A stretch of 36,870 bases of DNA from positions 1 to 36,870 of the forward strand of contig NZ_MWLO01000064.1 in assembly GCF_002198735.1 (NCBI RefSeq), written 5' to 3'. Positions within the stretch are counted from its first letter, which is position 1, and every line of letters starts with the position of its first letter. Source of the stretch: Ideonella sp. A 288 (lineage in GTDB: Bacteria; Pseudomonadota; Gammaproteobacteria; Burkholderiales; Burkholderiaceae_C). The notes under the pieces are model-generated. The model ran no database searches. It had not been told where the DNA came from and worked only from the letters and a program-made list of their open reading frames with translations. A program made the translations under genes and the position numbers. Positions 3,200 through 31,901 of the stretch are shown here, one piece after another.

Positions 3200-3319
3200 G
3201 CCCAGGGTCGATCCCGAGGCCCTTTGCAATGCAATTGCGCGCCACCTTGCCTACAGTGCCGCCACGTGCCCGCCACGGTGGACGGGCGCCCCCTTTCGAC
3301 GCTTCGTGGAGCAACCGAC

Positions 3320-4399
3320 ATGGCCGACCTCTTCGACAACCCCATGGGCCTGTGCGGCTTCGAGTTCGTCGAATTCGCTTCGCCCACACCCGGCGTGCTG
3401 GAGCCGCTGTTCGAGCAGCTGGGCTTCAGCCTGGTGGCCCGCCACCGCTCGAAGGACGTGCTGCTGTACCGCCAGGGCGGCGCCAACTTCATCGTCAACC
3501 GCGAGCCGCGCAGCCCGGCCGCTTACTTTGCCGCCGAGCACGGCCCCTGCGCCTGCGGTCTGGCCTTCCGGGTGAAGGACTCGCACCACGCCTACAACCG
3601 CGCGCTCGAGCTCGGCGCCCAGCCGGTGGACATCCAGACGGGGCCGATGGAGCTGAAGCTGCCGGCCATCAAGGGCATCGGTGGTGCGCCGCTGTACCTG
3701 ATCGATCGATTCGAAGATGGCTTGTCCATCTACGACATCGACTTCAACTTCCTGCCCGGCGTGGGCCGCCGGCCCCAGGGCCACGGCTTCTACGAGATCG
3801 ACCACCTCACGCACAACGTCTACCGCGGCCGCATGGAGTATTGGGGCCGGTTCTACGAGCGGCTGTTCAACTTCCGCCAGATCCGCTACTTCGACATCCA
3901 GGGCGAGTACACCGGCCTGACCAGCAAGGCCATGACGGCGCCGGACGGCCTGATCCGCATCCCGCTGAACGAGGAATCGGGCAAGGGCAGCGGGCAGATC
4001 GAGGAGTTCCTGATGCAGTTCAACGGCGAGGGCATCCAGCACATCGCGCTGCGCTGCGACGACCTGGTGGCCGCCGTCGACCGCCTGCAGCTGGCCGGCG
4101 TGCCGCTGATGACGGCGCCCAACGACGTGTACTACGAGATGCTCGACGAGCGCCTGCCCGGCCACGGCGAGCCGGTGGCCGCGCTGAAGACGCGCGGCAT
4201 CCTGCTCGACGGCTCCACCGCCGGCGGCGAGAAGCGCCTGCTGCTGCAGATCTTCTCGGGCACGCTGCTGGGGCCGGTGTTCTTCGAGTTCATCCAGCGC
4301 AAGAACGACGACGGCTTCGGCGAGGGCAACTTCAAGGCGCTGTTCGAGTCGCTGGAGCGCGACCAGCTGCGCCGCGGCGCGATCACGTCGGGGGCCTGA
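3320..4399 (+). CDS. hpd: 4-Hydroxyphenylpyruvate dioxygenase
   Basis: Non-haem iron enzyme converting 4-hydroxyphenylpyruvate to homogentisate in tyrosine and phenylalanine breakdown, cytoplasmic. The 359-residue protein has the two-VOC-domain layout of bacterial HPPD. The expected metal ligands are visible as H162 (EIDHLTHNV), H241 (GIQHIAL) and E323 (FFEFIQRK), and the C-terminal [18 protein letters not shown] helix that closes the active site is intact. The open frame extends upstream, but ATG at 3320 has GGAG nearby and begins the family's usual N-terminus ([10 protein letters not shown]). No hmgA or maiA homologue is adjacent, so the rest of the homogentisate route must be elsewhere. 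The divergent Lrp-type gene is the likely regulator. Confidence 0.97.
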
Positions 4400-4423: not shown

Positions 4424-7015
4424 TCACAGCGCCAGGTCGACCGCCTCCGGGCGAACGGCGTCGGCCGCGTCGGCCTCGGCCGGCACCGCCTCGCCGTCGT
4501 CCACCGGCCGCGCCGCCGGCAGGCGGATGCGCATCACCGCGCCGCCACCGGCCGCGTTCTCGGCGGCGATGCTGCCGCCGTGCGCGCTCATGATCTTGCG
4601 GCAGATGGTCAGGCCCAGGCCGGTGCCGCCGGCGCCGTCGGCGGTGCGGCTGGACTGCACGAAGGCGTCGAAGATCGACTCCAGCTCGTCGGCCGGGATG
4701 CCCGGCCCATGGTCGCGCACCACGATCTCGGTGCCGCCGTCGGGCGTGGGCAGGCAGTCCAGCTCGATGGCGCTGCCGATCGGCGCGAAGCGCAGCGCAT
4801 TGGCCAGCACATTGCGGATGACCTGCTGCATGCGGAAGGCGTCGACGTCGGCGCCCAGCGGTTGCTGCGGCGGGCGCAGCACGAGCTCGATGTCGCGCTG
4901 CCCGGCCAGCGGCCGCAGCTCGCGCGCCACCTCGGACACCAGCGTGGCCAGGTCGCGACGGTGCAACGCCAGCGAGCCCACCGTGCTCTCGAGCTTGGAC
5001 AGGTCGAGCAGCGCGTTCACCAGCGTCAGCATGCGCCGGCCGCCGGCATGCACCTCGCAGAACATGTCGAGGAAGTCCTCGTGCGCGGCCGCCAGCTTGG
5101 TGCCCAGCTCGGAGAAGCCGATGATGGCCTGCAGCGGCGTGCGCAACTCGTGGCTCATGTTGGCGATGAACTCCGACTTGGCGCGGTTGGAGCGCTCGGC
5201 GGCGTCGCGCGCCTCGCGGGTGGTGCGCTCGGCCTCGCGGAACTCGGTCACGTCGATGATGCTGCCGATGATGCCCGCCGGGCTGCCGTCGGCGTCGGTG
5301 AAGCGCAGCTTGGTGACCACCGTGTCGCGCCACTCGCCATCGGGGCGCTGCAGGCGGTTGTCGTAGCTGATGCGCTCTTCCGACTGCATCAGCCGCTCGT
5401 CGTGGGTGATGTGGAACGGTGCCGCCGCGCCGTACAGGTCGGCCGAGGTGCGGCCGATCACCTGCGCGGCCGTGAGCTGCATCAGCTCGAGCCAAGCGCG
5501 GTTGACGTTGACGAAACGGCCCTGCCTGTCCTTGACGAACAGCGGCGTCGGGCTGATCTCGATGAGCCGGGCGGTGAAGTCCAGTTGCGCCTGCAGCCGC
5601 TCCCGGGCCTGCTGCCGCTCGGAGACGTCGACGGCGAAGCCGGCATGGCCGATCAGCACGCCATCGCCATCGCGCACCGCGCTCAGCGACACCTCGAGCG
5701 TGCGCTGCACCTGCCGGGCGTCCAGCACGCGCACCATGCGCTTGGTGGCACCGCCAGCGGCGGCCTGCGCCACCAGGGCCTCGACCTGCGGCCGGTCCTC
5801 GGGCAGGCAGAGCCTGGCCAGTTCCCGTCCCATCGCGTTGCCGACGGCGGTACCGCTGATTTCTTCCCAACGCCCATTGACGTAGGTGATCCGGCCGGCC
5901 GCATCGGTGCGGAAGATCAGCTCGTGCACGCTGTCGACCAGGGTGCGCAGGTCGCGCTCGCTGGAGGCCACCTGCTCGCGGCTGGATTCCAGCGCGCTGC
6001 GCACGGCCTCGTGGCTGCGCAGGCTGCGCCAGGCCATGCCGGCCATGGCGCCGATGACCAGCAGCGCGGCAGCGCACATGGCCGCCACCCAGACCCGCAC
6101 ATGGTCGAACTCGGCCATCACTCGCGCGTGGTCGTGCTCCACCAGCACGGCCAGCGGCCGCTGCCGCAGCAGGCGGAAGGCGGTGACCACCCGGCCGCCG
6201 TCGAGGCCGGGCCCGACGTAGCTGCCCTGCTCGTGGGCCGGCAGGAACTGGGTGAAGAAGCGGTGCTCCGACGCCTTGTGGCCCGGCGCCAGCGCGATGC
6301 CCTCGGTGGCGCTGAGCAGCGTGCCGTCGACGGACAGCAGGCCGGCCGAGCGGCCGGCATCGGCCAGGAGCAGCTGGTGCTCGTTGGCGAAGTAGTCGGT
6401 GTTGATCGCGGCCACCACGTAGCGAGGCGGCTCGCCCCGGTCGAACGCTGCCCGCACCAGCGGCACGAAGCTGCGCGGGCTGGCGGCCGAGGCCGCGCCT
6501 CCGGCCGTCGCGGCGGCATCGGCCAGGTCTCGGCCAGCCACCAGCGGGCCCAGCCGATCGACCACGCCGGGCAAGGGCAACGGCACGCGTTTCGGGTCGA
6601 GCACCATGCCCACGTTGGCCGCGCTGGAGCTGGCCAGCACGCGACCGCGATCGTCGATGAGCGACAGGCTGCGCAGGAACGGCAGGCCCTGCTGCGCATT
6701 GGCCAGCAGCGCCGCCAGGCGCTCGGGGTCGGGCTCGGCGCGCAGGTCGTTGAGCGAGCGCGACAGCGTGGCCAGCGACACATCCAGCGTGTTGAAGGTG
6801 CGATCGGCGTGGTCGGCCAGCACGCGGGCCAGGGTCTCGCTGCCGTGCAGCTCGTGCTGCTCGACGTCGTTCGACTCGTGCCACGCGAACCCGGCGGCCA
6901 GGGCCACGGCCAGCGCGGCCAGCAGCGCCCCCATCCAGGCCACCGAGGCGCTGCTCAGCCAGCGGGGCAGTTCCGTGCGCCGGGTGCGGTCCATGGTCGG
7001 TGCGGTGTCGGCCAA
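4424..7015 (-). CDS. Membrane histidine kinase with Cache-like periplasmic domain and two PAS domains
   Basis: An 863-residue sensor kinase. It has an N-terminal membrane segment at about 25-44 and a large periplasmic region at 45-305 with features of double-Cache sensors (LRSLSLIDDRGRVLASS, YVVAAINTDYF). A second membrane segment is at about 307-328. PAS domains follow at about 353-468 and 478-595. The HisKA phospho-acceptor is H622 (MSHELRTPL) and the ATPase domain has an N box near 735-739, DHGPGIP at 768 and GGTGLGL at 796. It is not a hybrid: no receiver domain. It starts at TTG 7015 (AGG six bases upstream), three bases after the binding-protein stop; ATG at 6994 is an alternative. It is third in an operon with an HD-GYP regulator and a binding protein, so it probably phosphorylates the HD-GYP protein in response to a bound periplasmic solute. 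Confidence 0.93.
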   Translation of the reverse strand: MADTAPTMDRTRRTELPRWLSSASVAWMGALLAALAVALAAGFAWHESNDVEQHELHGSETLARVLADHADRTFNTLDVSLATLSRSLNDLRAEPDPERLAALLANAQQGLPFLRSLSLIDDRGRVLASSSAANVGMVLDPKRVPLPLPGVVDRLGPLVAGRDLADAAATAGGAASAASPRSFVPLVRAAFDRGEPPRYVVAAINTDYFANEHQLLLADAGRSAGLLSVDGTLLSATEGIALAPGHKASEHRFFTQFLPAHEQGSYVGPGLDGGRVVTAFRLLRQRPLAVLVEHDHARVMAEFDHVRVWVAAMCAAALLVIGAMAGMAWRSLRSHEAVRSALESSREQVASSERDLRTLVDSVHELIFRTDAAGRITYVNGRWEEISGTAVGNAMGRELARLCLPEDRPQVEALVAQAAAGGATKRMVRVLDARQVQRTLEVSLSAVRDGDGVLIGHAGFAVDVSERQQARERLQAQLDFTARLIEISPTPLFVKDRQGRFVNVNRAWLELMQLTAAQVIGRTSADLYGAAAPFHITHDERLMQSEERISYDNRLQRPDGEWRDTVVTKLRFTDADGSPAGIIGSIIDVTEFREAERTTREARDAAERSNRAKSEFIANMSHELRTPLQAIIGFSELGTKLAAAHEDFLDMFCEVHAGGRRMLTLVNALLDLSKLESTVGSLALHRRDLATLVSEVARELRPLAGQRDIELVLRPPQQPLGADVDAFRMQQVIRNVLANALRFAPIGSAIELDCLPTPDGGTEIVVRDHGPGIPADELESIFDAFVQSSRTADGAGGTGLGLTICRKIMSAHGGSIAAENAAGGGAVMRIRLPAARPVDDGEAVPAEADAADAVRPEAVDLAL

Positions 7016-7018
7016 CGC

Positions 7019-7828
7019 TTACCTGGCGACCACGATCTCGTGCAGGCCGTGGCGACGGGCGGCGGCCTCGAGCCGGCCGTCGTGCTTGATGCGCTTGACG
7101 AACTCGTCCACCTGGCGCAGCCAGTCGTCGTCGCCGGGTTTCACCGCGTAGGCATAGGGCAGCACGTGGTACGGCGCGGGCGGCGACACCAGCCGGGCCC
7201 AGTCGGCGTTGTCGAGCAGGCGCCGGCTGTACGGGTAGTCGGTCATGAAGACGTCGACGCGGCCGGCCTCCAGCTCCTGCTCGCGCGTCTGCGGCGGCTT
7301 GACGACCACCATCTTGGCCTGCTTCAGCCCGGCGGCCATCACCGGCTCCATGAAGGTGCCGGCCTGCACACCCACCTGCACCCCGGGCTTGTCGATGTCG
7401 GCCCAGGTCTTGACGACGCGGCTGCTGCGGGTGGTGACGCCGTAGATGTCGCTCTGCAGGTAGGGCTGCGAGAACTTCAGGTGCTGCTGCCGCTGCGGCA
7501 GCACGCCCACGGCGAACATCGCGATGTCGCAGCGCTCGCCGGTCACGTCCTCGACGAGCTTCGGGAACGAGGTGTCGACGTGCACCACGGCGGCCCCCAG
7601 GTCCTTGGCCAGGGCCTGCGACAGCTCGATGTCGATGCCGGTGAGCTGCTGCGTGCGCGGGCTGCGGTAGGTGATGCCGTAGTAGTCGGGCCAGATGCAC
7701 ACGCGCAGCTGGCCCGACGCCTTGATGCGGTCGAGCACGGGCCCGGCCGCGGCCGGGCCGGCAGCGGTCATCGACAGCAGCACGGCCAGGGCCAGGGCGG
7801 CCGGGCGGCAGAGCAAACGGGATGTCAC
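7019..7828 (-). CDS. Periplasmic solute-binding protein, family 3 (amino-acid-type), sensory
   Basis: A 269-residue exported binding protein. The N-terminus carries a signal peptide (hydrophobic LALAVLLSMTAA, cleavage near PAAAG). The mature protein shows the SBP_bac_3 pattern: LRVCIWPDYYGITYR, LTGIDIELSQALAKDLG, CDIAMFAVGV, QPYLQSDIYGVTTR and GRVDVFMTDYPYSRRLL. These proteins bind amino acids or small organic acids. GTG at 7828 is preferred over TTG 7849 because GGAG lies upstream at normal spacing and the signal peptide then has normal length. No ABC permease or ATPase is nearby. It is encoded between an HD-GYP regulator and a kinase with a large periplasmic domain, so it likely delivers its ligand to that kinase rather than to a transporter (inference). 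Confidence 0.92.
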   Translation of the reverse strand: MTSRLLCRPAALALAVLLSMTAAGPAAAGPVLDRIKASGQLRVCIWPDYYGITYRSPRTQQLTGIDIELSQALAKDLGAAVVHVDTSFPKLVEDVTGERCDIAMFAVGVLPQRQQHLKFSQPYLQSDIYGVTTRSSRVVKTWADIDKPGVQVGVQAGTFMEPVMAAGLKQAKMVVVKPPQTREQELEAGRVDVFMTDYPYSRRLLDNADWARLVSPPAPYHVLPYAYAVKPGDDDWLRQVDEFVKRIKHDGRLEAAARRHGLHEIVVAR

Positions 7829-7864
7829 GACGGAGTCTCCAGACAGCAAAAGGGGGAGGGCCGG

Positions 7865-8995
7865 TCAGTGCACATCGGCCAGCAGCCTGACCGCGTTGTG
7901 CTCGGGTTCGGCAAAGCGGTGGCGGATCTGCTCGAGCTCGGGCACCAGGGTGACGAAGCAGTGCAGCATGGTCGGGTCGAAGTGCTTGCCGGCGTTGTCC
8001 AGCATGTAGCGCACCGCGTCGTCCACGGCCCAGGCCTTCTTGTACGGCCGCTCCGAGGTGAGCGCGTCGAACACGTCGGTGATGGCGACGATGCGCGCCG
8101 CCGCCGGGATGGCCTCGCCGGCCAGGCCGTGCGGGTAGCCGGTGCCGTCCCAGCGCTCGTGGTGCGACAGCGCGATCTCGCGGGCCATGTCGAGCAGTTC
8201 GTTGCCGGCGCCATGCAGGATCTGCGCGCCGATCAGCGTGTGCGTCTGCATCACCTCGCGCTCGTCGGCCGTCAGCGGGCCGGGCTTGAGCAGGATGCCG
8301 TCGGGGATGCCGATCTTGCCCACGTCGTGCATCGGGCTGGCATTGAGCACCAGCTCGCAGGCCTCCGGTGGCCAGCCCAGCCGCGCGGCCAGCAGCGCCG
8401 AGGCGTGGCTCATCCGCATGATGTGCTGGCCGGTCTCGTTGTCGCGGAACTCCGAGGCCCGGCCGAGCCGCTGCACGATGTCCAGCTGCGACTGGCGCAG
8501 CTGCTGCGTGCGCTGCTGCACCAGGGTCTCGAGCAGGCTGTTCTGGTCGTGCAGCAGGCGCCGGCCCCGGTGGGCCATCAGCGTGTTGCAGACGCGGGCC
8601 AGCAGCTCGCGCCGGTTGTAGGGCTTGGTCAGGAAGTCGGTGGCGCCGCCCTGCAGCGCGCGCACCAGCACCTCCTCGCCCGACTGCGCGGTCAGCACCA
8701 CCACCGGCGGGGCCAGCGGGTCGGCCAGCGCCGCCAGCTGGGCCAGCACGTCATGGCCGTCAAGGTGCGGCATGTTCAGGTCGAGCAGGATCAGGTCGGG
8801 CCGGGCGGCGCGGTAGCGGCCCAGCACCTCGCGCGGGTCCTGCACCAGCTCGATGTGCCGGTAGCCTTCGGAGCGCAGGATCAGGCTCAGCAGCTTGAGG
8901 TTGGCGGGCTCGTCGTCCACCACCATGATGCGCGCCGCCTGGACGTCATCGTGGCCGACAGGGTGGCCGTCATGGCAGCTGGCGGCTTCGCTCAT
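7865..8995 (-). CDS. Response regulator with HD-GYP domain (c-di-GMP phosphodiesterase type)
   Basis: A 376-residue RpfG-like protein. The receiver domain (about 21-140) has the acidic pair in VVDDEP, phospho-acceptor D72 (LILLDLNMP) and the conserved lysine K124 (TKPYN). A helical linker leads into an HD-GYP domain with HDVGKIGIP (H223/D224) and HHERWDGTGYP (278-288), so the catalytic signature is complete and degradation of c-di-GMP is expected. The open frame extends upstream, but ATG 8995 has GGAG nine bases before it and begins close to the receiver domain. It is the first gene of an operon with a binding protein and a kinase. A ligand-controlled lowering of c-di-GMP, affecting motility or biofilm, is the likely output. 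Confidence 0.95.
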   Translation of the reverse strand: MSEAASCHDGHPVGHDDVQAARIMVVDDEPANLKLLSLILRSEGYRHIELVQDPREVLGRYRAARPDLILLDLNMPHLDGHDVLAQLAALADPLAPPVVVLTAQSGEEVLVRALQGGATDFLTKPYNRRELLARVCNTLMAHRGRRLLHDQNSLLETLVQQRTQQLRQSQLDIVQRLGRASEFRDNETGQHIMRMSHASALLAARLGWPPEACELVLNASPMHDVGKIGIPDGILLKPGPLTADEREVMQTHTLIGAQILHGAGNELLDMAREIALSHHERWDGTGYPHGLAGEAIPAAARIVAITDVFDALTSERPYKKAWAVDDAVRYMLDNAGKHFDPTMLHCFVTLVPELEQIRHRFAEPEHNAVRLLADVH

Positions 8996-9231
8996 GGGCG
9001 CGGGCTCCGTGCAAGGGGATGGACGCGGCACGGCCGGCCCGAAGGGCCGACTCCACCGCACGATGTCCCGGTCTTCGGCACGCCGTGCCCACAACTTGAA
9101 TCGGCCCTCGGGCTCAAGGCCTCGGCACCGCGGCCGATATCCCCCTCAGCACTCGCTGGCTGCCGGGTCGGGACAGGTCTGTCCGGGCCGGTCTGGCCGT
9201 CCCGCGAGCGCACAGCACGGAGAAGCACCCC
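8996..9231. other. Divergent intergenic region between two sensory modules
   Basis: 236 bp separate the HD-GYP gene (minus) from the PhnD-like gene (plus), so it must hold both promoters. A short hairpin-forming motif CGGCCC-GAA-GGGCCG lies near 9030-9050. No convincing sigma-70 pair or longer palindrome was found by eye. A shared control site would be expected if the two modules are co-regulated. Confidence 0.4.
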
Positions 9232-10119
9232 ATGAGCCTGCGTTCGTTCCCGACCCTGCCTTCGATCCTGTCGCCGGCGCGCCGGCACCTCGTCCTGGCG
9301 CTGGCCGCGCTGGCCACGGCCACCTTGCCCGCCGTCGCCAGCGACGAGCCGATCTACCGCTTTTCGCCGGTCAACCAGACCGGCATCAACCTGACCGCCG
9401 CCTACTGGAACCCGATCATCGGCTACGTGTCCGAGAAGAGCGGCGTCAAGCTGCAGCTCAAGATCGGCCGCACCTCGGCCGACACCACCGCCTTCGTGCT
9501 GGCCCAGGAGATCGAGTTCGTCTTCACCAACCACCTGTTCAGCCCCGAGCGCGAGCAACTGGGCTGGAAGGTCTTCGGCCGTCGCCTGACGCCGCCGGTG
9601 CACGGCCAGATCGTGGTGCCGGCCGATTCGCCGATCACCAGCGTGGCGCAGCTGGAGGGCAAGGAGGTGGCCTTCCCCGGCCCGGAGGCGCTGGTGGCCT
9701 ACAAGTTCCCGACCGCGCACCTGCTGTCGAAGAAGATCGAGGTGAAGACCGTCTTCGGCGGCAACATGGACGGCGCGCTGGCGCAGTTGTTCAGCGGCAA
9801 GGTCGCCGCCGTGGGTGCCAACTCGCAGCTGGTCGAGGGTTACGCCCGGCGCGAGGGCAAGCAGTACCGCGTGCTGTGGAGTTCGCCGCCGGTGCACGAC
9901 CTGGCGCTGATGGTGTCGTCCAAGGTGCCCGAGAAGGCCCAGAAGGCAGTGGCCAAGGCCTTCGTCGACATGGCCGCCGACCCCAAGGGCCGCGAGATCC
10001 TGCACCAGGCCTCGGCCCAGGTGGGGCTGGGCGCCGACGCCCACTTCATCGCCTCGGACGGCAGCGAATACGCCACCTACCGCGAGTTCTACCGCACCGC
10101 CCCGGCGTCGCTGCGTTGA
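9232..10119 (+). CDS. PhnD-like periplasmic binding protein (phosphate/phosphonate type), sensory
   Basis: A 295-residue exported protein. It has a signal peptide with hydrophobic core (LVLALAALATATL, cleavage near AVASD), then the PhnD/SsuA-like periplasmic fold: PVNQTGINLTAAYWNPII, KIGRTSADTTAFVLA, GKEVAFPGPEALVAYKFP, and GGNMDGALAQLFSGKVAAVGANSQL. ATG at 9232 has GGAGA at normal spacing. Family members bind phosphonates, phosphite or other oxyanions for ABC import, but no phnC or phnE-like gene follows. Instead the next two genes are a membrane kinase and a receiver protein, so the protein probably acts as a ligand sensor for the kinase. The ligand cannot be predicted; many PhnD relatives bind non-phosphonate molecules. 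Confidence 0.9.
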   Translation: MSLRSFPTLPSILSPARRHLVLALAALATATLPAVASDEPIYRFSPVNQTGINLTAAYWNPIIGYVSEKSGVKLQLKIGRTSADTTAFVLAQEIEFVFTNHLFSPEREQLGWKVFGRRLTPPVHGQIVVPADSPITSVAQLEGKEVAFPGPEALVAYKFPTAHLLSKKIEVKTVFGGNMDGALAQLFSGKVAAVGANSQLVEGYARREGKQYRVLWSSPPVHDLALMVSSKVPEKAQKAVAKAFVDMAADPKGREILHQASAQVGLGADAHFIASDGSEYATYREFYRTAPASLR

Positions 10120-10172
10120 CCGCGCACCCCGCGCCCGGCGCGCCGATGCACCCCGCCCACTGCCACTGATCC

Positions 10173-12515
10173 ATGGCCAAGACCTTCAGCCTGCTGCCGC
10201 GCTCGCTCGTCGGCCGGGTGTACGCGCTGTACACCGTCACCCTGCTGGCCTTCGTGGCCGCCGGGCTGGGCCTGTTCTACCGCCACCAGTTCACCGTGGA
10301 GATGGACGAGGCCCAGGAGCGCGCTGCGACGCTGAGCGCGGTGATCGTGCCCAGCGTCACCGACAGCGCGGTGATCGGCGACTACGACACCATCCGCCGC
10401 ACGCTCGAGCAGGCCGTCTACCACTCGTCGTTCGCGAGCGCGAGCTTCATCGACATCCGCGGTGGCGCCGTCAGCGCAAAGCAGGCCGAGCGCCCGCGCA
10501 CCCAGCCGCCAGCCTGGCTGGCCAACCTGGTGGCCGCGCGCCTTTACGACACCAACCAGACCATCGCCGTGGGCGGCCGCGACTACGGCGTGCTGCGCCT
10601 GAGCTTCGCCACCGAGCGCATCGCCGGCCTGCTGTGGGAACAGGTGCGCATCGCCCTGCTGATGGCCGTGGCCAGCCTGGTCGGCGGCCTGGTGCTGATC
10701 CGCTTTCCGCTGGTGCATTGGCTGGGCAAGCTGGGCCGCCTGCAGGCCTTCGAGGAGGCCATGCATGGGGGCCACGCTGCACCGTCGATGCTGGCCGCCG
10801 AGGAGGCGCCGACCGAGTTCCAGGAAACCTTCGCCGTGCTCGGCCGCGCCGCCGAGCGGCTGCAGTCGCACCGCGTGCAGGCCACGGTGACGCTGGGGGC
10901 GATCGCCGACGGCGTGTTCACGCTCGACCCGACGGGCCGCGTGCTGCTGGCCAACCCCGCGGCCTGCGCGATGACCGGCCGCGACGCCGAGGCCGCCGCC
11001 GGTCAGCCGATCGGCCAACTGCTGCCCGGGCTGGTCTTCGGCGAAGAGGGCCTGGTCGCCTGGAGCGGCCGCCGCACCACGCTGCACCAGGCCGAGCGCG
11101 GCGAGGTGGTCGTCGACACCACGCTGTCGCCCATCCTGGCCCCCGACGGCAACACCTCGGGCTACGTGCTGGCCTGCCGCGACGTCAGCGAGCAGCACCG
11201 GCTCGACCAGCGCCTGCGCGCCGAACTGGAGGCGCGCGAGCAGGCCCTGGTGGCCCTGCGCCGCGTGCTCGAAGGCCTGACGCCCGACCTGCCGGCCCCG
11301 GCCACCGGCCCCGACGACCTGGCGGCGATCTCGTCCATGATCTCGGGCCTGGTGCACCGCCTGCAGATGCGCGGCGAGCAGCTCGACGCGATCTTCGCGC
11401 TCAGCCCCGACGGCTTCGTCTCGTTCGACGCGCGCCGCCGCGTCAACTACGTCAGCCCGGCCTTCACCCGGCTCACCGGCATCGCCGCCGAGCGCGTGCT
11501 GGGCGCACCCGAGGGCCAGGTCGAATCGCTGCTGCGCGCGCAGGGCGACGACACCCGCGGTTGGTGCGGCTTCGAGGCCATGCGCCGGGCCTCGACCGCC
11601 ACGAGCACGCGAGGGCGCCCGCCGCGCGAACTGATCGAGCTGGTGCGGCCGGCCGACCGCGTGCTGGAAGCGCGGCTGCGCCAGGGCACCACCGAGGCCA
11701 TCTCGCAGGTGCTGTCGCTGCGCGACGTGACGCACGAGACCGTGGTCGACCGCATGAAGAGCGAGTTCCTGTCCACTGCCGCGCACGAGCTGCGCACGCC
11801 GATGGCCAGCATCTACGGCTTCGCCGAGCTGATGGCACGGCGGCGCATGACCACCGACCAGCAGCACGAGATCGCGGAGACCATCCACCGCCAGAGCGAG
11901 CTGATGATCACCATCCTCAACGAACTGCTCGACCTGGCGCGCATCGAGTCGCGCAGCGGCCGCGATTTCGAGATCGAGACGCTCGACCTGTCCGAGCTGG
12001 CGGCGCAGGTGCTGCGCGACTTCAAGCCGCCGCAGGACCGCGCCTTGCCGGTGCTCGACGGCGACGAGGCGCCGGCCACGGTGCGCGCCGACCGCAACAA
12101 GCTGCGGCAGGCGCTGGGCAACGTGCTGTCCAACGCCTTCAAGTACTCGCCCGACGGGCAGCCGGTGAGCGTGACCGTGGTGCACCGCGACGGCCCCGAC
12201 GGCGCGGCCATCGGCGTGCAGGTGCGCGACCGCGGCATCGGCATGACGCCGGCCCAGCTGTCGCGCGTGTGCGAACGCTTCTACCGCGCCGACGCCTCCG
12301 GCAACATCCCCGGCACCGGCCTGGGCATGAGCATCGTGAAGGAGATCGTCGAACTGCTCGACGGCCAGCTGGCCATCGACAGCACGGCCGGCGTCGGCAC
12401 CACCGTGACCCTGTGGCTGCCGGCGGTGCCGGAGGCCGTGGTGCCTCGGCACCCGCGGGCCGACGCGCACCGCCATCTGCCCGAGGGCATTCCGAACACA
12501 TTGGAGCTGACATGA
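10173..12515 (+). CDS. Membrane histidine kinase with two PAS domains
   Basis: A 780-residue sensor kinase. Membrane segments at about 16-35 and 157-178 enclose a compact periplasmic domain of about 120 residues, which includes DSAVIGDYDTIRRTL as in other periplasmic sensors of this type. Two PAS-like domains follow at about 237-340 and 402-520. HisKA has phospho-acceptor H538 (STAAHELRTPMAS), and the ATPase part shows an N box (NVLSNAFKYS), DRGIGM and GTGLGMSIVKEI. No receiver domain is fused. The stop overlaps the start of the response regulator by 4 nt (ATGA), so the two are translationally coupled and form a cognate pair. The PhnD-like gene lies 53 nt upstream and probably supplies the signal. 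No clear ribosome site precedes ATG 10173. Confidence 0.93.
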   Translation: MAKTFSLLPRSLVGRVYALYTVTLLAFVAAGLGLFYRHQFTVEMDEAQERAATLSAVIVPSVTDSAVIGDYDTIRRTLEQAVYHSSFASASFIDIRGGAVSAKQAERPRTQPPAWLANLVAARLYDTNQTIAVGGRDYGVLRLSFATERIAGLLWEQVRIALLMAVASLVGGLVLIRFPLVHWLGKLGRLQAFEEAMHGGHAAPSMLAAEEAPTEFQETFAVLGRAAERLQSHRVQATVTLGAIADGVFTLDPTGRVLLANPAACAMTGRDAEAAAGQPIGQLLPGLVFGEEGLVAWSGRRTTLHQAERGEVVVDTTLSPILAPDGNTSGYVLACRDVSEQHRLDQRLRAELEAREQALVALRRVLEGLTPDLPAPATGPDDLAAISSMISGLVHRLQMRGEQLDAIFALSPDGFVSFDARRRVNYVSPAFTRLTGIAAERVLGAPEGQVESLLRAQGDDTRGWCGFEAMRRASTATSTRGRPPRELIELVRPADRVLEARLRQGTTEAISQVLSLRDVTHETVVDRMKSEFLSTAAHELRTPMASIYGFAELMARRRMTTDQQHEIAETIHRQSELMITILNELLDLARIESRSGRDFEIETLDLSELAAQVLRDFKPPQDRALPVLDGDEAPATVRADRNKLRQALGNVLSNAFKYSPDGQPVSVTVVHRDGPDGAAIGVQVRDRGIGMTPAQLSRVCERFYRADASGNIPGTGLGMSIVKEIVELLDGQLAIDSTAGVGTTVTLWLPAVPEAVVPRHPRADAHRHLPEGIPNTLELT

Positions 12516-12907
12516 GCCGCATCCTCGTCATCGAAGACCAGGCCGACATCCGCCGACTCATCCGCTGGACGATCGACACCGAACGCCACGAGATCCACGA
12601 AGCCGCCAATGGCCCGCAGGGGCTGGAGAGCGCGCAACGCCTGGTGCCCGACCTGGTGCTGCTCGACGTGATGATGCCCGGCGGGATGGACGGCTTCGAG
12701 GTCTGCGCCCGGATCAAGGCCGACCCGAAGCTGGCGCATGCCCCGGTCGTGATGCTGACCGCCCGCGCCCAGGAGAAGGACCACCGGGCCGGCGAGCAGG
12801 CCGGCGCCGAAGCCTTCCTGGCCAAGCCCTTCAGCCCGAGCGACCTGGTGGACACCATCGAGCGCCTGCTCGAGCAGGCCCGCGCACCGCAGCAATCGCC
12901 GCAATGA
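12512..12907 (+). CDS. Single-domain response regulator (CheY-like)
   Basis: A 131-residue receiver domain without output domain. The acidic pocket (VIEDQAD), phospho-acceptor D52 (LVLLDVMMPGG), TAR switch threonine region (VVMLTARAQ) and lysine (FLAKPFSP) are all present. Its start overlaps the stop of the kinase gene by 4 nt. With no DNA-binding domain it must act by protein contact, for example in a phosphorelay or on a c-di-GMP enzyme. The HD-GYP regulator of the divergent module is a nearby candidate for cross-talk, but that is speculation. Confidence 0.95.
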   Translation: MSRILVIEDQADIRRLIRWTIDTERHEIHEAANGPQGLESAQRLVPDLVLLDVMMPGGMDGFEVCARIKADPKLAHAPVVMLTARAQEKDHRAGEQAGAEAFLAKPFSPSDLVDTIERLLEQARAPQQSPQ

Positions 12908-13289: not shown

Positions 13290-13391
13290 TTGGCTGAACG
13301 AACCGTGGCCCCCCGTCTGCTAGAGTGTTTTCTCACCGGCCACCGTCGCGACGATGCGGGCCGTGGCGACACCCCGCGGCGGAGGCAGTCC

Positions 13392-15500
13392 ATGGCGCCC
13401 AGATCCCCCTTCCTTCACGCGGCATCGGCCGTCACGCTGTGGCTGTCGATGCCGGGCGCGCCGGCCCTGGCCGCGCCGCTGCCCGACGCCCCCACCACCG
13501 TGGCAGTCTGGAACCAGGCCGCCCTCGACGAAGTGCGCGCCTCGCGCATGGGCCCGCCGGTGGTGGCGCGCGCGCTGGCCATCGCGCACACCTGCATGTA
13601 CGACGCGTGGGTGCCCTACGACGCCCGGGCGGCCGGCGCCGTGGCCACGCTGCCGCGCCGGCCGCTGGCCGAGCGCACCGAGGCCAACAAGGCCAAGGCC
13701 ATCGGCCACGCGGCCCACCGCTGCCTGCTCAACCTGTTCCCTGCCGGTGCCGCGAGGCTGGCCGCGGTGATGCGTGCCCAGGGCCACGACCCGGCCGATG
13801 CCTCGCTGCAGGTGTCCACGCCCCAGGGCATCGGCAACGCCGCGGCCGCCGCGGTGATCGCCAGCCGCCGCCACGACGGCTCCAACCAGTATGGCGACCT
13901 GGGCACCGGCCCCTACGCCGACACCACCGGCTACGCGCCGGTCAATGCGCCGATGCCCTTCTGCCTGCCGACGACGCCGGGCCCCTGCCCGTTGAACGTG
14001 TCCGACCCCTTCCGCTGGCAGCCCCTGGTCAACGACGTGGGCGCGGTGCAGACCTTCATCGCGCCGCACTGGGGCCTGGTGCGGCCGTTCGCGCTGAGCT
14101 CGGGCAATGTCTACGACCAGCGCCCCGACATCGCGCCAGTCCCCAACTACCTGCAAAGCCCGGCACGCCTGCAGGCCGACATCGACGAGATGCTGCGCCT
14201 CAGTGCCAGGCTGACGCCGCACCAGAAGCTCATCGTCGAATACTGGGCCGACGGCCCCGATTCGGAACTGCCCCCCGGCCACTGGGGCCTGTTCGCCCAG
14301 CACGTGTCGCGGCGCGACCGGCACACGATCGACGACGACGTGAAGATGTTCTTCGCGATGCACAACGCGTCCTTCGACGCCGGCATCGTGGCCTGGCATC
14401 TCAAGCGCAAGCACGAGGGCGTGCGGCCGATCACCCTGGTGCGCCACTTCAGGCGGGGCACGCTCGAGTTCGCCTGGGGCGGCCCCGGCCGGCCCCAGCA
14501 GCTGATCGACGCCGGCAAGTGGACACCGTACAACCCCGGCAGCAACCTCTCGCCGGCCTTCCCGGGCTACATCTCCGGCCACTCCACCTTCTCGTCGGCC
14601 AGCGCCGAGGTGCTGCGGGCCTTCACCGGCAGCGACCACTTCGGCTTCTCCGTCCTGGTGCCGCGCAATTTCGGCCGCGTGGAGCCCGGCGTGCCGGCGG
14701 TGGACACCGTGCTCACCTACCCGACATTCAGCGCGGCCGCCGACGAGGCGGGCCAGTCGCGGCTGTTTGCCGGCATCCACTCTTCCGACGACAACACCAT
14801 CGGCCAGGCCGTCGGCCGGCTGGTGGCGCAGCAGGTGCTGGCCAAGGCACGCGCCCTGTTCGACGGCGGCCTGGCGGCCGGCGCGTCCAGCCGGGCGTCC
14901 ACGCCCGAAGCCCGGTCGCTGAGCTGGCATCACACCGTCGGGCCGTCGAGCGACCGGCTGCTCGTCGTCGGCGTGGCCACCACCACCAAGGACAACCCGG
15001 TGCGCAGCGTCGCCTACGGCACCGCAGCCCTCGCCCGGCTGGCCTCGCAGAACGGGCCGGGTGGCGACAACCGCGTGGAGCTGTGGGTGCTGGTCGACCC
15101 ACCGGTCGGCACCGCCACCGTGCAGGTGCAGATGACGGCCAGGGACGACCTGGTCGCGGGCGCGACCAACTTCAGCGGGGTGCACCAGACCACGCCGTTC
15201 GGCACCCTGCGCGCGGCCGCCGGCACCGGCCGTGCGGCGTGCCTGACGCTGGCCAACGCCCCGGCGCCGCTGGTGGCCACGGTGCTGGCGGCCAATTCCG
15301 ACGCCGGCGGGGTGATGCCCGGTGCCGGCCAGGCCCTGGACTGGGCCGCGGTCAGCAAGCCCGGTGGCTCGGAGCCCTCGTCGGACGTCATCGGCGCCGG
15401 CTTCAGCGGCCCCGGGGGCCCGGTGGCCACGGTCTGCCAGACGCTGGCCAAGGCCCGGCCCTGGTCGATGCTGGCGGTGCCGCTGCTGCCGGCGCAGTAG
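13392..15500 (+). CDS. Secreted vanadium-dependent haloperoxidase-like protein (PAP2 superfamily)
   Basis: A 702-residue exported protein; ATG 13392 has a perfect GGAGG six bases upstream. A signal peptide spans about 1-28. The vanadate/phosphate-binding signature is present in order: K338-x6-R345-P346 (KRKHEGVRP), S395-G396-H397 (YISGHSTFS) and S456-R457-x3-G461-x-H463 with D467 following. H463 is the expected vanadate ligand and H397 the acid-base histidine. The residue before SGH is Ile, not the usual Pro. The core ends near residue 500; about 200 further residues are rich in Gly/Ala/Val and form an extra C-terminal domain I do not recognise. Halide oxidation or a phosphatase reaction are both possible; metal and substrate cannot be told from sequence. 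Confidence 0.85.
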   Translation: MAPRSPFLHAASAVTLWLSMPGAPALAAPLPDAPTTVAVWNQAALDEVRASRMGPPVVARALAIAHTCMYDAWVPYDARAAGAVATLPRRPLAERTEANKAKAIGHAAHRCLLNLFPAGAARLAAVMRAQGHDPADASLQVSTPQGIGNAAAAAVIASRRHDGSNQYGDLGTGPYADTTGYAPVNAPMPFCLPTTPGPCPLNVSDPFRWQPLVNDVGAVQTFIAPHWGLVRPFALSSGNVYDQRPDIAPVPNYLQSPARLQADIDEMLRLSARLTPHQKLIVEYWADGPDSELPPGHWGLFAQHVSRRDRHTIDDDVKMFFAMHNASFDAGIVAWHLKRKHEGVRPITLVRHFRRGTLEFAWGGPGRPQQLIDAGKWTPYNPGSNLSPAFPGYISGHSTFSSASAEVLRAFTGSDHFGFSVLVPRNFGRVEPGVPAVDTVLTYPTFSAAADEAGQSRLFAGIHSSDDNTIGQAVGRLVAQQVLAKARALFDGGLAAGASSRASTPEARSLSWHHTVGPSSDRLLVVGVATTTKDNPVRSVAYGTAALARLASQNGPGGDNRVELWVLVDPPVGTATVQVQMTARDDLVAGATNFSGVHQTTPFGTLRAAAGTGRAACLTLANAPAPLVATVLAANSDAGGVMPGAGQALDWAAVSKPGGSEPSSDVIGAGFSGPGGPVATVCQTLAKARPWSMLAVPLLPAQ

Positions 15501-15698
15501 CCGCCACCGGGCCGGGCGGTCCGGCGCGGGTCAGGCGCGGTCACCGGCCCGGCGATGGGCCTGGCGGCCCACGGACATCGCGCAGCCGTCACACTCCCCC
15601 ACGCGGCGCCGCGCAGTGGGCGCCAACCTCGCCATCTCACGCTGGCGCCCGGGCCAGGCCGCCGTCGCGCGGCCCGGCCGCCCCACCCGCCTGAAGCG

Positions 15699-17387
15699 AT
15701 GCACGATTCCATGCCCCTCATCGTCACGATGGCCGCCGCGCTGGGGCTGTCCCTGGTGCTGGGCTTCGCCGCCGCGCGGCTGAAGCTGCCGGCCCTGGTG
15801 GGCTACCTGCTGGCCGGCGTGCTGATCGGGCCCTTCACGCCGGGCTTCGTGGCCGACGTGGGGCTGGCCACGCAGCTGGCCGAGATCGGCGTGATGCTGC
15901 TGATGTTCGGCGTCGGCCTGCACTTCTCCATCGACGACCTGATGGCCGTGCGCAAGATCGCCATCCCGGGCGCGATGGTGCAGATGGCGGTGGCCACGGC
16001 GCTGGGCACCGTCGTGGCGCTGGGCTGGGGCTGGTCCATGGCCGGGGCGCTGGTCTTCGGTCTCTCGCTGTCGGTGGCCAGCACGGTGGTGCTGCTGCGC
16101 GCGCTCGAATCGCGCGGCGTGCTCGAATCGCAGAACGGCCGCATCGCCGTGGGCTGGCTGGTGGTGGAAGACCTGGCCATGGTGCTGGTGCTGGTGCTGC
16201 TGCCGGCGCTGGTGACCCTGGGCGACGCCGCCGGCGCATCGGCCACCGACCTGGCGCTCACCCTGGCGCGCACGCTGCTGGCGGTGATCGCCTTCGTCGC
16301 GCTGATGCTGGTGGTGGGGCGGCGCGTGCTGCCCTGGGTGCTGTGGCAGATCAGCGCCACGGGCTCGCGCGAGCTGTTCACGCTGTGCGTGGTGGCGGTG
16401 GCGTTGGGCATCGCCTACGGTGCCTACGCGCTGTTCGGCGTGTCGGTGGCGCTGGGCGCGTTCTTTGCCGGCCTGGTGCTGCGCGAATCGGAGTTCAGCC
16501 ACCGCGCGGCCGAGGAATCGCTGCCCTTCCGCGACGCCTTCGCGGTGCTGTTCTTCGTCTCGGTGGGCATGCTGTTCGACCCGCGGGTGCTGCTCGATCG
16601 CCCGCTGCAGGTGCTGGCCGTGGCCGCGATCATCATGGTCGGCAAGTCGGTGGCGGCCGCCGCGCTGGTGCTGGCGCTGCGCTACCCGTTGAACACCGCG
16701 CTCACGGTGTCGGTGAGCCTGGCGCAGATCGGCGAGTTCTCGTTCATCCTGGCCGCGCTGGGCGGCAGCCTGGGCGTGCTGCCGCCCGAGGCCAAGAGCC
16801 TGATCGTGGCCGGCGCCATCCTGTCGATCGCGCTGAACCCGCTGCTGTTCTCGCTGATCGAGCCAATGCGCCGCTGGGTGGTGGGCCGCTCGGCGCTGGC
16901 GCGGCGGCTCGAGGCGCGCGACGACCCGCTGGCCGAACTGCCGACGAGCACCAGCCGCCAGGTGCTGTCGCGGCAGGTGGTGCTGGTGGGCCATGGCGTG
17001 GTGGGGCGGGCGGTGGCCCGCTCGCTCACCGAGCGCGGCATCCCGTTCGTGGTGGTGGACCAGAACCGCGAGCGCGTCGAGTCGCTGCGCGAGGCGGGCC
17101 TGGCCGCGGTGGTGGGCGACGCGGGCGAGCCGTCGGTGCTGGTGCAGGCGCACATCGCCGAGGCCGCCCTGCTGGTGGTGGCCGCATCCGACAGCACCGA
17201 CGTGCGGCCGATGATCGAAACCGCCCACGCGCTGAACCCGGGCCTGCCGATCCTGGTGCGCGCCGCCAATGCCGAGGAGGCGCGCCTGCTGCTGGGCGCC
17301 GGCGCGCAGCGCGCGGTGCACGCCCAGGGCGCCGTGGCCGACGCACTGGTGCGCGACGTGGCCGAGGCCTGGGCCGCGCGGCGCTGA
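15699..17387 (+). CDS. ybaL: Cation:proton antiporter, YbaL/KefB type (CPA2) with C-terminal RCK domain
   Basis: A 562-residue protein close in length and layout to E. coli YbaL. An N-terminal Na+/H+ exchanger domain with about 12 membrane segments spans roughly 1-395, with strongly conserved stretches (LVGYLLAGVLIGPFTPGFVAD, LMFGVGLHFS, GWLVVEDLAMVL, FFAGLVLRESEFSHRAAEES). A Rossmann TrkA-N/RCK domain starts near 424 (VVLVGHGVVGRAVARSL) and binds nucleotide to gate ion flux. The likely role is K+ efflux coupled to proton entry in pH or electrophile stress. ATG 15699 is chosen because it opens with MHDS(M)PLIV, like YbaL; ATG 15711 is possible. It stands alone, convergent with the next gene at a 10-bp gap. 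Confidence 0.94.
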   Translation: MHDSMPLIVTMAAALGLSLVLGFAAARLKLPALVGYLLAGVLIGPFTPGFVADVGLATQLAEIGVMLLMFGVGLHFSIDDLMAVRKIAIPGAMVQMAVATALGTVVALGWGWSMAGALVFGLSLSVASTVVLLRALESRGVLESQNGRIAVGWLVVEDLAMVLVLVLLPALVTLGDAAGASATDLALTLARTLLAVIAFVALMLVVGRRVLPWVLWQISATGSRELFTLCVVAVALGIAYGAYALFGVSVALGAFFAGLVLRESEFSHRAAEESLPFRDAFAVLFFVSVGMLFDPRVLLDRPLQVLAVAAIIMVGKSVAAAALVLALRYPLNTALTVSVSLAQIGEFSFILAALGGSLGVLPPEAKSLIVAGAILSIALNPLLFSLIEPMRRWVVGRSALARRLEARDDPLAELPTSTSRQVLSRQVVLVGHGVVGRAVARSLTERGIPFVVVDQNRERVESLREAGLAAVVGDAGEPSVLVQAHIAEAALLVVAASDSTDVRPMIETAHALNPGLPILVRAANAEEARLLLGAGAQRAVHAQGAVADALVRDVAEAWAARR

Positions 17388-27922: not shown

Positions 27923-30271
27923 TCAGTGCACCGCGCTCAGCACCGACGATTCGTGCTGCCAACCGCGCTGCAGGCGCAGGAACTCGGGCAGCGGCACCGC
28001 CGGCGACACCAGGTAGCCCTGCATCTCGTGGCAGCCGGCCCGGGCCACGGCCTCGAGTTGCAGCGCCGATTCAACGCCCTCGCACACCGTGCGCATGCCC
28101 AGGGTTGTGGCCAGGTGCGAGATCATCTGCACGATGGCGCGGGCATCGGGCTGCACCAGCACCTCGCTGACGAAGGCGCGGTCGATCTTCAACGTGTCGA
28201 ACGGGAAACGGCGCAGGTAGGCCAGCGACGAGTAGCCGGTGCCGAAATCGTCGAGCGCCACGCGCACGCCCAGGCCGCGCAGCGTGTGCAGTTTCTCGAG
28301 CGCGCCGTCGGCGTCGTCGATGAACACCGATTCGGTGATCTCCAGTTCCAGCCGCGACGGCGGCAGGCGACATTCGCGCAGGGTGTCGCGCACCTGGGCG
28401 ACGAACTGAGATTCGCGCAACTGCAGCGGCGACACGTTGACCGACACCGTCAGGCCCGCCAAGGGGCCGGCCGCGGCGCGGCAGGCCTCGCGCAGGGCCC
28501 AACGGCCGAGTTCGTCGATCAGGCCGCACTGCTCGGCCACGCCGATGAACTCGCCAGGGGGCACGCGCCCCAGCACGGGATGCTCCCAGCGCATCAGCGC
28601 CTCGGCGCCGGCGATGCGCCAGTCGGCGATGTCGACCTTGGGCTGCCAGTGCAGCGCCAACTGGCCGCGCTCGAGGGCCTGCCGCAGGCCCTGCTCGATC
28701 GCCAGGCGGCGACGGCTGCGTTCGCCCAGGTGGGGCGCATACACCGCGAAGCGGCCGCGGCCCGACTCCTTCGCCGCGTAGAGCGCGGTGTCCGATCGCG
28801 CCAGCCACTCGTCGACGCCCAGCGTTGCGTCGTCGCTGGCGGCCACGCCCACGCTGGCCCCGACGCGCAGCCGCCGCGACGACAGCTCCACCGGCAGTGA
28901 CAGCGCGTCGACCAGGCGCTGGGCCATCGTGGCGGCGTCGGGCGCCTCGCCCACGTGGCGCATCAGCACCGCGAACTCGTCTCCACCCAGCCGGGCCACC
29001 AGGTCGTCGGGGCGCACACAGGCGCGCAGGCGCTGCGCGACGGCCTTCAGCACATCGTCGCCGGCGCTGTGGCCCATGCTGTCGTTCACCGTCTTGAAGT
29101 GGTCCAGGTCGATCAACAGCAGCGCCGCGCTGCGGTCGCCGTGCACCACCTCGGCCAGCGCATCGCGCAGCATGAAGCGATTGGCCAGACCGGTGAGCGA
29201 ATCGGTGTGCGCCAGTCGGCGCAGCTGGCGCTCGCCCTCGAGCTTTTCGGTGACATCGGCCAGCACGCCGCGCCAGCCCAGCGTCTGCCCCTCGTCGTCG
29301 ACCAGGCGCTTGCCATTGATGGCCAGGTGCCGCGGCGCGGCATCGGTGCGCAGGGTGAGCTGCAGGTTGCGGAACGGTCGCCCGGCATCGAACGCCAGGC
29401 GCAGCGCGGCCAGGCCGTCGTGGGCCCTGGGCTCCAGCAGGGCCAGCAGGGTGCCGGCGCGGATGTCGTCCTCGCCGACGCCCAGCAGCTCGGCCAGACG
29501 CGGCGACAGGTGCCGCAGCCGGCCATCGACGCCAACCTCCCACAGGGCCTCGTCGGCATGCTGCTCGAAGTCGTGCAGCAGCACCGCCAGCGTGCGCTCC
29601 TGCTGGGCCGAGCGCGCCTGGGCCCGGATCAGCGCAGTGGCCTTGCCCCAGGCCGACAGCGAGCCGATCACGACCATCGGAGAGTAGAGCCCGATCAGCG
29701 CGGCCAACGCGGCCAGGTCCGGATCGCCGGCCCGCCACAGCGCGCCCAGCGCCGACAGCGAGAACACACCGACGTAGGCCATGCTGGCCAGCGGCAGCGT
29801 GCTGAGCATGAAGCTGCCGGCACCGATCATGCCGGTGACCAGCGTGGCCACCACCATCTGCTGCGCCGGCGCGGCCGTCGGGAACCACAGCAGCAGCGGC
29901 ACGGTCCAGAGCCCCGCCAGGAAGGCGGCATGCAGGGTGGCGCGGTGCACCGCGCGCACCGACACCGTGTCGCGCGGCCGCCGTGCCTGCCGCCACCAGG
30001 CCCGCAGGCCCAGGCCGGACAGCACCAGCAGCACCGCCAGCCACAGCCACAGCCCGGGCGGTGCCCCCGGGGTGAAGGACCAGACCACGAGCACGGCGCT
30101 GCCCATGTGGCAGGCCAGTGCATAGGGTGTGAGGCGCACCACCTCGCGCAGGTGGGCACCGCGCAGCAGCGCGGCATCGCGGTCGCCATTGCCGTACATG
30201 TCGGCCACGGCGCTGCGCAGGCTTCGAAACTGTGCTGCGTCGACGAACGTCATCGTGCCCGGCGCCGCCAC
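27923..30271 (-). CDS. Bifunctional diguanylate cyclase/phosphodiesterase (GGDEF-EAL) with membrane sensor
   Basis: A 782-residue inner-membrane protein. The N-terminal 210 residues hold about six membrane segments (MASE-like). A PAS-like domain spans about 222-350, GGDEF spans about 352-515 with an intact GGDEF motif (429-433) and an RxxD inhibitory site (R420-D423) five residues before it, and EAL spans about 523-770 with EAL at 557-559, ELEITES, DDFGTGYSS and KIDRAF. Both domains therefore look active; the usual late Q-G-Y-x-F-S is changed to QGYLVSPAVP. The start is GTG 30271 (AAGGGG upstream); ATG 30253 is an alternative. The gene stands alone between the thioredoxin-like gene and atoA and probably responds to a membrane-sensed cue. 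Confidence 0.93.
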   Translation of the reverse strand: MAAPGTMTFVDAAQFRSLRSAVADMYGNGDRDAALLRGAHLREVVRLTPYALACHMGSAVLVVWSFTPGAPPGLWLWLAVLLVLSGLGLRAWWRQARRPRDTVSVRAVHRATLHAAFLAGLWTVPLLLWFPTAAPAQQMVVATLVTGMIGAGSFMLSTLPLASMAYVGVFSLSALGALWRAGDPDLAALAALIGLYSPMVVIGSLSAWGKATALIRAQARSAQQERTLAVLLHDFEQHADEALWEVGVDGRLRHLSPRLAELLGVGEDDIRAGTLLALLEPRAHDGLAALRLAFDAGRPFRNLQLTLRTDAAPRHLAINGKRLVDDEGQTLGWRGVLADVTEKLEGERQLRRLAHTDSLTGLANRFMLRDALAEVVHGDRSAALLLIDLDHFKTVNDSMGHSAGDDVLKAVAQRLRACVRPDDLVARLGGDEFAVLMRHVGEAPDAATMAQRLVDALSLPVELSSRRLRVGASVGVAASDDATLGVDEWLARSDTALYAAKESGRGRFAVYAPHLGERSRRRLAIEQGLRQALERGQLALHWQPKVDIADWRIAGAEALMRWEHPVLGRVPPGEFIGVAEQCGLIDELGRWALREACRAAAGPLAGLTVSVNVSPLQLRESQFVAQVRDTLRECRLPPSRLELEITESVFIDDADGALEKLHTLRGLGVRVALDDFGTGYSSLAYLRRFPFDTLKIDRAFVSEVLVQPDARAIVQMISHLATTLGMRTVCEGVESALQLEAVARAGCHEMQGYLVSPAVPLPEFLRLQRGWQHESSVLSAVH

Positions 30272-31726: not shown

Positions 31727-31757
31727 CTTGGATGTCCTCGCCTTCCTGAAGCTGATG

Positions 31758-31783
31758 CCCCGGATTCAACGTCCGAATCGGGG
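31758..31783. promoter_or_regulatory. Inverted-repeat element between atoD and the PAS kinase
   Basis: CCCCGGATTC (31758-31767) pairs with GAATCGGGG (31775-31783) with one bulged G and a 7-nt spacer, in the divergent gap. It is the only palindrome seen there and could be the operator of a regulator of atoDA. No local regulator gene is a clear candidate. Confidence 0.35.
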
Positions 31784-31901
31784 TGGGCTTAAGGCTGAGA
31801 AGCCACAGGTTTGCGGCAGGTCAACCCTGATGTGCGGTACTTGCCCCCTGCAACGTTGCCAATGGCACCACCCATCGCCGGCCCACTGCTCGCCCGCGAT
31901 A

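Follow-up and report, generated by a model that had tools for sequence, protein, structure and literature searches.

Two sensory gene modules that stand head to head may work as one system or may simply be neighbours. A stretch of 36,870 nucleotides from Ideonella sp. A 288 (contig NZ_MWLO01000064.1; the whole stretch is called the window below) raises this question, as its positions 4424-12907 hold two divergent modules, each with a periplasmic binding protein and a sensor kinase. An earlier interpretation made from the letters alone, here the sequence-only reading, took them as a paired system that converts two periplasmic ligands into phosphorelay and cyclic di-GMP (c-di-GMP) output. We found both modules in many other genomes and nowhere else side by side. 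They are probably two independent binding-protein-dependent two-component modules, which became neighbours by chance in this genome.

The list of open reading frames (ORFs) and Pfam searches placed all six genes, with their strands and domains, where the sequence-only reading had put them. The left module, on the minus strand, comprises, from the first gene transcribed to the last, an HD-GYP response regulator (7865-8995) with a REC domain and a c-di-GMP phosphodiesterase-type domain (Response_reg 4.7e-29, HD_5 5.2e-35), a family-3 periplasmic binding protein with a predicted amino-acid-type ligand (SBP3; 7019-7849; SBP_bac_3 8.7e-23) and a sensor kinase (HKa; 4424-7015) with a predicted double-Cache periplasmic sensor, two PAS domains, HisKA and HATPase_c. 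By ORF limits the gaps are 15 and 3 bp, a packing as tight as in operons. The right module, on the plus strand, comprises a PhnD-fold periplasmic binding protein (called PhnD below; 9232-10119; Phosphonate-bd 2.3e-37), a sensor kinase (HKb; 10173-12515) with a predicted LapD/MoxY-type periplasmic sensor, PAS in two stretches, HisKA and HATPase_c, and a single-domain receiver of 131 amino acids without an output domain (12512-12907; Response_reg 1e-28). A gap of 53 bp separates the first two genes and the receiver start overlaps the HKb stop by 4 bp, which is also operon-like. The divergent region between the modules (8996-9231) is exactly 236 bp, from the ATG at 8995 on the minus strand to the ATG at 9232 on the plus strand. 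A consensus scan of this region found neither a sigma-70-like promoter nor a terminator. In an inverted-repeat scan of it, the longest pair (23 nt, 74%) was formed by the two gene-start regions, and no clear operator was seen.

The distribution of the modules was surveyed in genomes and loci that carry our own labels (G and L). In a scan of 399 genomes of the family, up to six candidates were scored per genome and the threshold for PhnD was E 1e-90. The PhnD loci, in which the window is not counted, number 49: 37 named loci from a one-genome-per-species collection, which include Piscinibacter, Leptothrix, Sphaerotilus, Roseateles, Pelomonas, Rhodoferax, Curvibacter, Hylemonella and Dechloromonas, ten from family genomes and two from genomes of the same genus. 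Five distant homologues (36-42%, L017-L021) and a fragment in G017 were excluded. The same fragment was counted as PhnD in the table of a 200-genome sample, and it fell under the threshold of the 399-genome table. For SBP3, 30 short loci (window included) and 28 loci with long flanks were used. The latter were drawn from 27 genomes: 19 are among the 45 genomes with SBP3 in the 200-genome sample (G194 contributed two loci), and eight more are of the same genus. In choosing them, preference was given to members of that genus and to genomes with PhnD as well.

Among the 399 genomes, 32 hold PhnD, 102 hold SBP3 and 16 hold both, the window's genome included. The modules are apart in all 15 of the other genomes that hold both: they lie on different contigs in 12, and the same-contig cases are separated by about 27 kb (G235), 0.38 Mb (G075) and 1.7 Mb (G091). 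Within the genus, only G214 besides the window's genome holds both, on two contigs. G169 has the HD-GYP, SBP3 and kinase genes and no PhnD, and the window SBP3 groups with that of this genome (support 97/92). The flanks told the same. SBP3 was found in none of the 49 PhnD loci, 46 of which have at least 2.5 kb of upstream flank and three less, and a PhnD protein was found in none of the 28 long-flank SBP3 loci. In principle, contig edges could hide adjacency in fragmented genomes; the long-flank loci do not show it. A conserved paired unit was rejected on the linkage in the 399 family genomes and on the 49 and 28 loci, and the head-to-head placement in the window looks like a local arrangement. 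The sequence-only reading had itself named regular separation of the modules as evidence against pairing, and such separation is what these genomes and flanks revealed.

What is kept in evolution is the adjacency of each binding protein to its own receptor, so that the description of the locus as two binding-protein/kinase modules was borne out. SBP3 is present in 45 of the 200 and 102 of the 399 family genomes, and an HKa-type match adjoins it in 29 of the 30 short loci. In 18 of these 30, the window included, an HD-GYP match lies upstream of SBP3 on the same strand. The exact order HD-GYP, SBP3, kinase recurs in G169 and G264, which belong to one genus, and in G219 (loci L069, L145 and L146); compared with the window, their HD-GYP proteins are 63-70% and their SBP3 proteins 70-79% identical. 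For the right module, all 49 loci have a gene directly behind PhnD, on the same strand, whose N-terminal part is the HKb sensor region. An alignment of residues 1-236 of HKb, made without L114, gave 40-71% identity between the window and 48 relatives. Behind this sensor the output varies. It is a plain or a hybrid kinase, with a fused REC motif in 21 of the 49 loci, and the position of the kinase H-box ranges from about residue 307 to 815. This module is not ubiquitous, being found in 32 of the 399 family genomes and in three of 21 genomes of the genus, the window's included.

A number of observations weigh against two independent modules of this kind, and some of them would favour a true paired system, in which the modules combine the signals of two periplasmic ligands and the single receiver mediates cross-talk. 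Besides the divergent layout around a common 236-bp region, PhnD and SBP3 occur in the same genomes about twice as often as expected. Of the 31 other PhnD genomes, 15 also hold SBP3, compared with 7.9 expected (one-sided Fisher test, P = 0.003, a test that ignores kinship and genome size). At genus level, with the window's genus included, 11 hold both, compared with 5.4 expected (P = 0.003, again ignoring kinship), and the 200-genome sample gave 6 compared with 3.3 (P = 0.08). The receivers point in two directions. Nine of the 49 PhnD loci have stand-alone receivers (45-65% identity) within 5 kb, and in L052 and L089 HKb is followed by a receiver with 65% identity. In the tree, the receiver of the window clusters with four PhnD-module receivers (support 96/92), so it belongs to the PhnD module. 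The other seven of 11 PhnD-module receivers fall among 17 SBP3-module receivers, and therefore both module kinds draw on one receiver subfamily. The remaining exceptions concern the make-up of each module. Among the 28 long-flank loci, no receptor gene adjoins SBP3 in L079, L140 and L143, and in L086 the SBP3 neighbour has only PAS domains in Pfam, which leaves its status as a receptor uncertain. L070 and L071 carry the receiver and the HD-GYP domain as two proteins, in the order REC, HD-GYP, SBP3, kinase; therefore the partner of HKa may differ among relatives, and the match pattern suggests the same split in further SBP3 loci. The PhnD-like fragment of G017 (L016, L066) contains one internal stop and has no HKb-type gene beside it; it is likely a decaying copy. 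Set against the unlinked modules in every other genome that holds both, and the window receiver's own grouping, these points leave a paired system unlikely. A further alternative is that the binding proteins serve in import or scavenging, with the kinases merely nearby, as the best-known members of both families feed ATP-binding cassette (ABC) importers. The kept adjacency to the receptors (29/30 and 49/49) speaks against this. In agreement with the sequence-only reading, neither an ABC permease nor an ATPase, and no locus combining the two, was recognized among the Pfam-scanned ORFs of the window (some window ORFs were outside the scan). A PF00528 search in five genomes gave 314 matches; among the matches listed, none is on the window contig, and in the other four genomes none comes closer than about 39 kb to either module. 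An importer role is accordingly a quite improbable explanation.

Two more rivals accept the gene arrangement and would change what the binding proteins do. SBP3 might be a periplasmic cyclohexadienyl dehydratase (PheC-like) instead of a sensor, as its nearest solved chains are AncCDT-1, the best profile match, followed by cyclohexadienyl dehydratases. AncCDT-1 is a reconstructed ancestor that, in the available part of its description, binds arginine (PMC7683729). The excerpted account of the dehydratase PaCDT lists nine active-site residues, with Glu173 being essential (PMC10520331). SBP3 keeps two of them, Tyr22 and Thr169. In an alignment with numbering mapped by eye, Trp60, Lys100, Asn128, Thr132, Asn133, Asn152 and Glu173 of PaCDT correspond to Phe95, Ile135, Gln162, Phe166, Met167, Pro186 and Tyr207 of SBP3, and the PaCDT residue was found at these seven positions in none of 29 SBP3 sequences. 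The position of the catalytic glutamate holds Tyr in 27 and Phe in two. With seven of nine residues replaced, the essential glutamate included, the PheC enzyme was rejected as a candidate, and we regard this rival as the least credible. The right module could instead be a sensor of arsenic or phosphite oxyanions of the AioXSR/ArrXSR type. It has the same gene order X-S-R, and a profile of 38 PhnD orthologues matches ArrX (6.5e-8) and AioX (0.0017), the only solved binding proteins it matches apart from a partial transferrin. The residues by which AioX holds the oxyanion include, in the portion of PMC5908839 at hand, Cys106, Ser161, Ser163 and His192. These align with Thr99, Ala153, Val155 and Met179 of the PhnD-fold protein, where the AioX numbering was mapped by eye and the His column was taken from the ArrX alignment because AioX itself aligns poorly near the histidine. 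In every one of the 38 orthologues, the AioX residue is absent from all four positions: position 99 is Ser or Thr and position 153 Ala in all 38, position 155 is never Ser and position 179 never His. The window protein has no Cys at all, as is the case for 18 of the 38 sequences, the rest having one or two. In addition, the receiver lacks a DNA-binding output, and no arsenite oxidase catalytic subunit was recognized among the scanned ORFs of the window. On these replacements, oxyanion sensing of the AioX type was rejected for the right module, and an arsenic or phosphite sensor of any such kind seems very unlikely.

The sensor domains of the kinases would be the docking sites of the binding proteins. 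For residues 1-340 of HKa, a 20-sequence alignment gave a predicted fold with a mean predicted local distance difference test score (pLDDT) of 91.5, in which long helices surround a double-Cache domain. The best PDB matches were two chains of 3lif, the extracellular domain of a putative histidine kinase (best E 1.3e-13). The sequence-only reading had called this kinase Cache-like, and the predicted fold agrees, though the Pfam model dCache_1 stayed far under its cut-off on the window protein (18.8 compared with 45 bits). At E 0.01, dCache_1 was found in 11 of the 20 HKa members scanned, the window included. Residues 1-236 of HKb were predicted from a 49-sequence alignment (pLDDT 83.4) as one small domain between two helices. 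The sole PDB match below 0.001 was 4u64, the periplasmic domain of a LapD orthologue (2.5e-4). LapD_MoxY_N (PF16448) scored 25.2 bits on the N-terminal piece of HKb, compared with a cut-off of 25, and 22.8 bits on the whole protein, and it was found at E 0.01 in 28 of the 49 HKb members, including the window. Taken together, the models identify the sensor of HKa as a double-Cache fold and that of HKb as a periplasmic domain of the LapD/MoxY type.

From these parts a mechanism can be proposed for each module. In the left one, SBP3 would catch a small ligand, probably of amino-acid type, in the periplasm, and the loaded protein would dock on the double-Cache domain of HKa. HKa would then alter how far the HD-GYP protein, its presumed partner, is phosphorylated on its REC domain, and hence the breakdown of c-di-GMP, although the direction of this change is also presumed. 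In the right module, the PhnD-fold protein, whose pocket is without the known oxyanion residues, would catch a ligand and dock on the LapD/MoxY-type sensor of HKb, which may hand phosphate to the single-domain receiver. The HD-GYP protein has the motifs HDVGKIG and HHERWDGTGYP in its HD_5 domain. In three relatives the receptor beside SBP3 is itself a c-di-GMP enzyme by Pfam, GGDEF-EAL in L074 and L085 and GGDEF in L075. Because of the HD-GYP partner in the window and these GGDEF or GGDEF-EAL receptors, the left module probably acts on c-di-GMP. Thus the c-di-GMP output claimed by the sequence-only reading likely holds for the left module; a paired system was not supported.

The neighbours of SBP3 offer a hint of its ligand. 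Arg120 and Asp204 are invariant in the 29 SBP3 sequences, and we take them to be the counterparts of the residues that bind the carboxylate and amino groups in family-3 proteins specific for amino acids. In seven of the ten other same-genus loci (L067, L068, L138, L139, L141, L142 and L144), kynurenine-pathway genes lie upstream of SBP3 and the kinase on the same strand. Tryptophan dioxygenase is 75-227 bp from SBP3 in six of them, and kynureninase stands alone in L139; one member each of the clusters of tryptophan dioxygenase, kynureninase and a formamidase-like cyclase was checked in Pfam. L140 and L143 have no kynurenine genes, and the sequence of L137 ends at SBP3. As a family-wide rule, the link was rejected: of the 45 SBP3 genomes in the 200-genome sample, 34 encode tryptophan dioxygenase, and by eye the gene adjoins SBP3 in only two of the 34 (G011 and G143, of the same genus). 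An aromatic amino acid of tryptophan type is a reasonable guess for the SBP3 family. For the window copy the guess is weak, because the genome of the window carries tryptophan dioxygenase on a different contig (C30) and because the window SBP3, grouping with that of G169, falls outside the kynurenine-linked group in the tree. The gene is likewise on another contig in G209, and it is 161 kb away in G206. The PhnD orthologues are similar to each other, with a mean column identity of 64% and 77 invariant columns, so they probably share one ligand. More speculatively, the SBP3/double-Cache pair might be an interchangeable front end that passes an aromatic amino acid of tryptophan/kynurenine type to c-di-GMP and is joined to different outputs in different lineages (kinase plus HD-GYP, GGDEF or GGDEF-EAL). 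The PhnD-fold/LapD-type pair might be another front end, with a ligand other than an oxyanion. That both halves of this proposal hold as worded is doubtful.

The kind of mechanism is already known, and both modules are recurrent and separate. According to the part of PMC9602780 available, stimulation by binding proteins is general to sensor kinases, cyclases and phosphodiesterases, with about ten characterized kinase examples. BctC/BctE in that source, and LuxP and TorT in the accessible part of PMC5908839, resemble both modules in that a periplasmic binding protein acts on a transmembrane receptor with a periplasmic sensor. As described there, they differ in protein families and sensor domains; here, the output lies in a separate HD-GYP regulator, or in GGDEF/EAL receptors in relatives. 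The excerpt of a c-di-GMP review states that SBP_bac_3, in RmcA, was the sole member of the binding-protein clan to have been studied in c-di-GMP networks (PMC8846402). RmcA of Pseudomonas aeruginosa resembles the left module, as a family-3 binding domain is tied to c-di-GMP turnover. According to the same excerpt, this domain lies within the RmcA protein, while SBP3 is a separate gene. PheC and PaCDT are among the closest solved relatives of SBP3 and differ from it at the active-site positions given above. The AioXSR, ArxXSR and ArrXSR systems, in the sections of PMC5908839 consulted, combine a PhnD-fold periplasmic protein, a sensor kinase and a response regulator in one cluster, as the right module does, and AioX and ArrX are also its nearest solved binding proteins by sequence. 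Compared with AioXSR as described in those sections, the right module lacks the oxyanion Cys/Ser/Ser/His set, has a lone receiver in place of a DNA-binding regulator and has a LapD/MoxY-type sensor. In the open-licence literature searched, we found neither the SBP3/double-Cache nor the PhnD-fold/LapD-type module described. A speculative paired system is thus replaced by two testable, recurrent sensor modules. The left one links a periplasmic binding protein to c-di-GMP by a concrete route, and the kynurenine neighbours in the same genus allow a guess at its ligand. Annotating the PhnD-fold protein as a phosphonate- or arsenic-binder is probably misleading, as it lacks the AioX oxyanion residues. 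Should the ligands be identified, both modules could be used as biosensor front ends, and one environmental input to c-di-GMP control in these bacteria would be explained.

Some loci of relatives carry additional genes around the modules. Near SBP3 modules of other genera (L070-L073, L078 and L081-L084; nine of the 28 long-flank loci), there is a gene with an N-terminal HTH_17 domain and a C-terminal receiver, a domain order unusual for a response regulator (one member was checked in Pfam). A second receiver gene, read as two-domain, was found in seven of the 28. In L078, a kinase with a heme-NO-binding-associated (HNOBA) domain (L078:7779-9557) stands between HD-GYP and SBP3, which suggests a further input to that locus. 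In L090 (Leptothrix discophora) and L092 (Sphaerotilus mobilis), PhnD and its kinase stand between two single receivers that differ from each other, one on the upstream and one on the downstream side. Six of the 49 PhnD loci contain a gene for a Kef-type cation/proton antiporter, divergent and adjacent in L100, L107, L108 and L123 and about 6.5 kb off in L118 and L119; in the window, such a gene (15555-17387) lies 2.6 kb downstream of the right module. This association is only a lead.

The rest of the window contains genes of other kinds. A GGDEF-EAL protein (27923-30271) and a multi-PAS HisKA_3 kinase (31239-33809) have no visible link to the modules. Next to the right module, 13290-15500 encodes a vanadium-dependent haloperoxidase-like protein (DUF6851, VCPO second domain and PAP2). 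On the other side are hppD (3224-4399) and, at the contig edge on the minus strand (135-2526), two genes resembling members of the DsrMKJOP sulfur electron-transfer complex. The haloperoxidase-like gene, hppD and the DsrO/DsrP-like genes were rejected as functional neighbours: none had a match at E 1e-12 in the 49 and 28 loci, so their positions are probably incidental. The DsrO/DsrP-like genes were not expected near hppD. DsrP scored above its NCBIfam cut-off (380 compared with 350 bits) and the DsrO-like protein below (173.7 compared with 200), and the remainder of any dsr cluster would fall off the contig.

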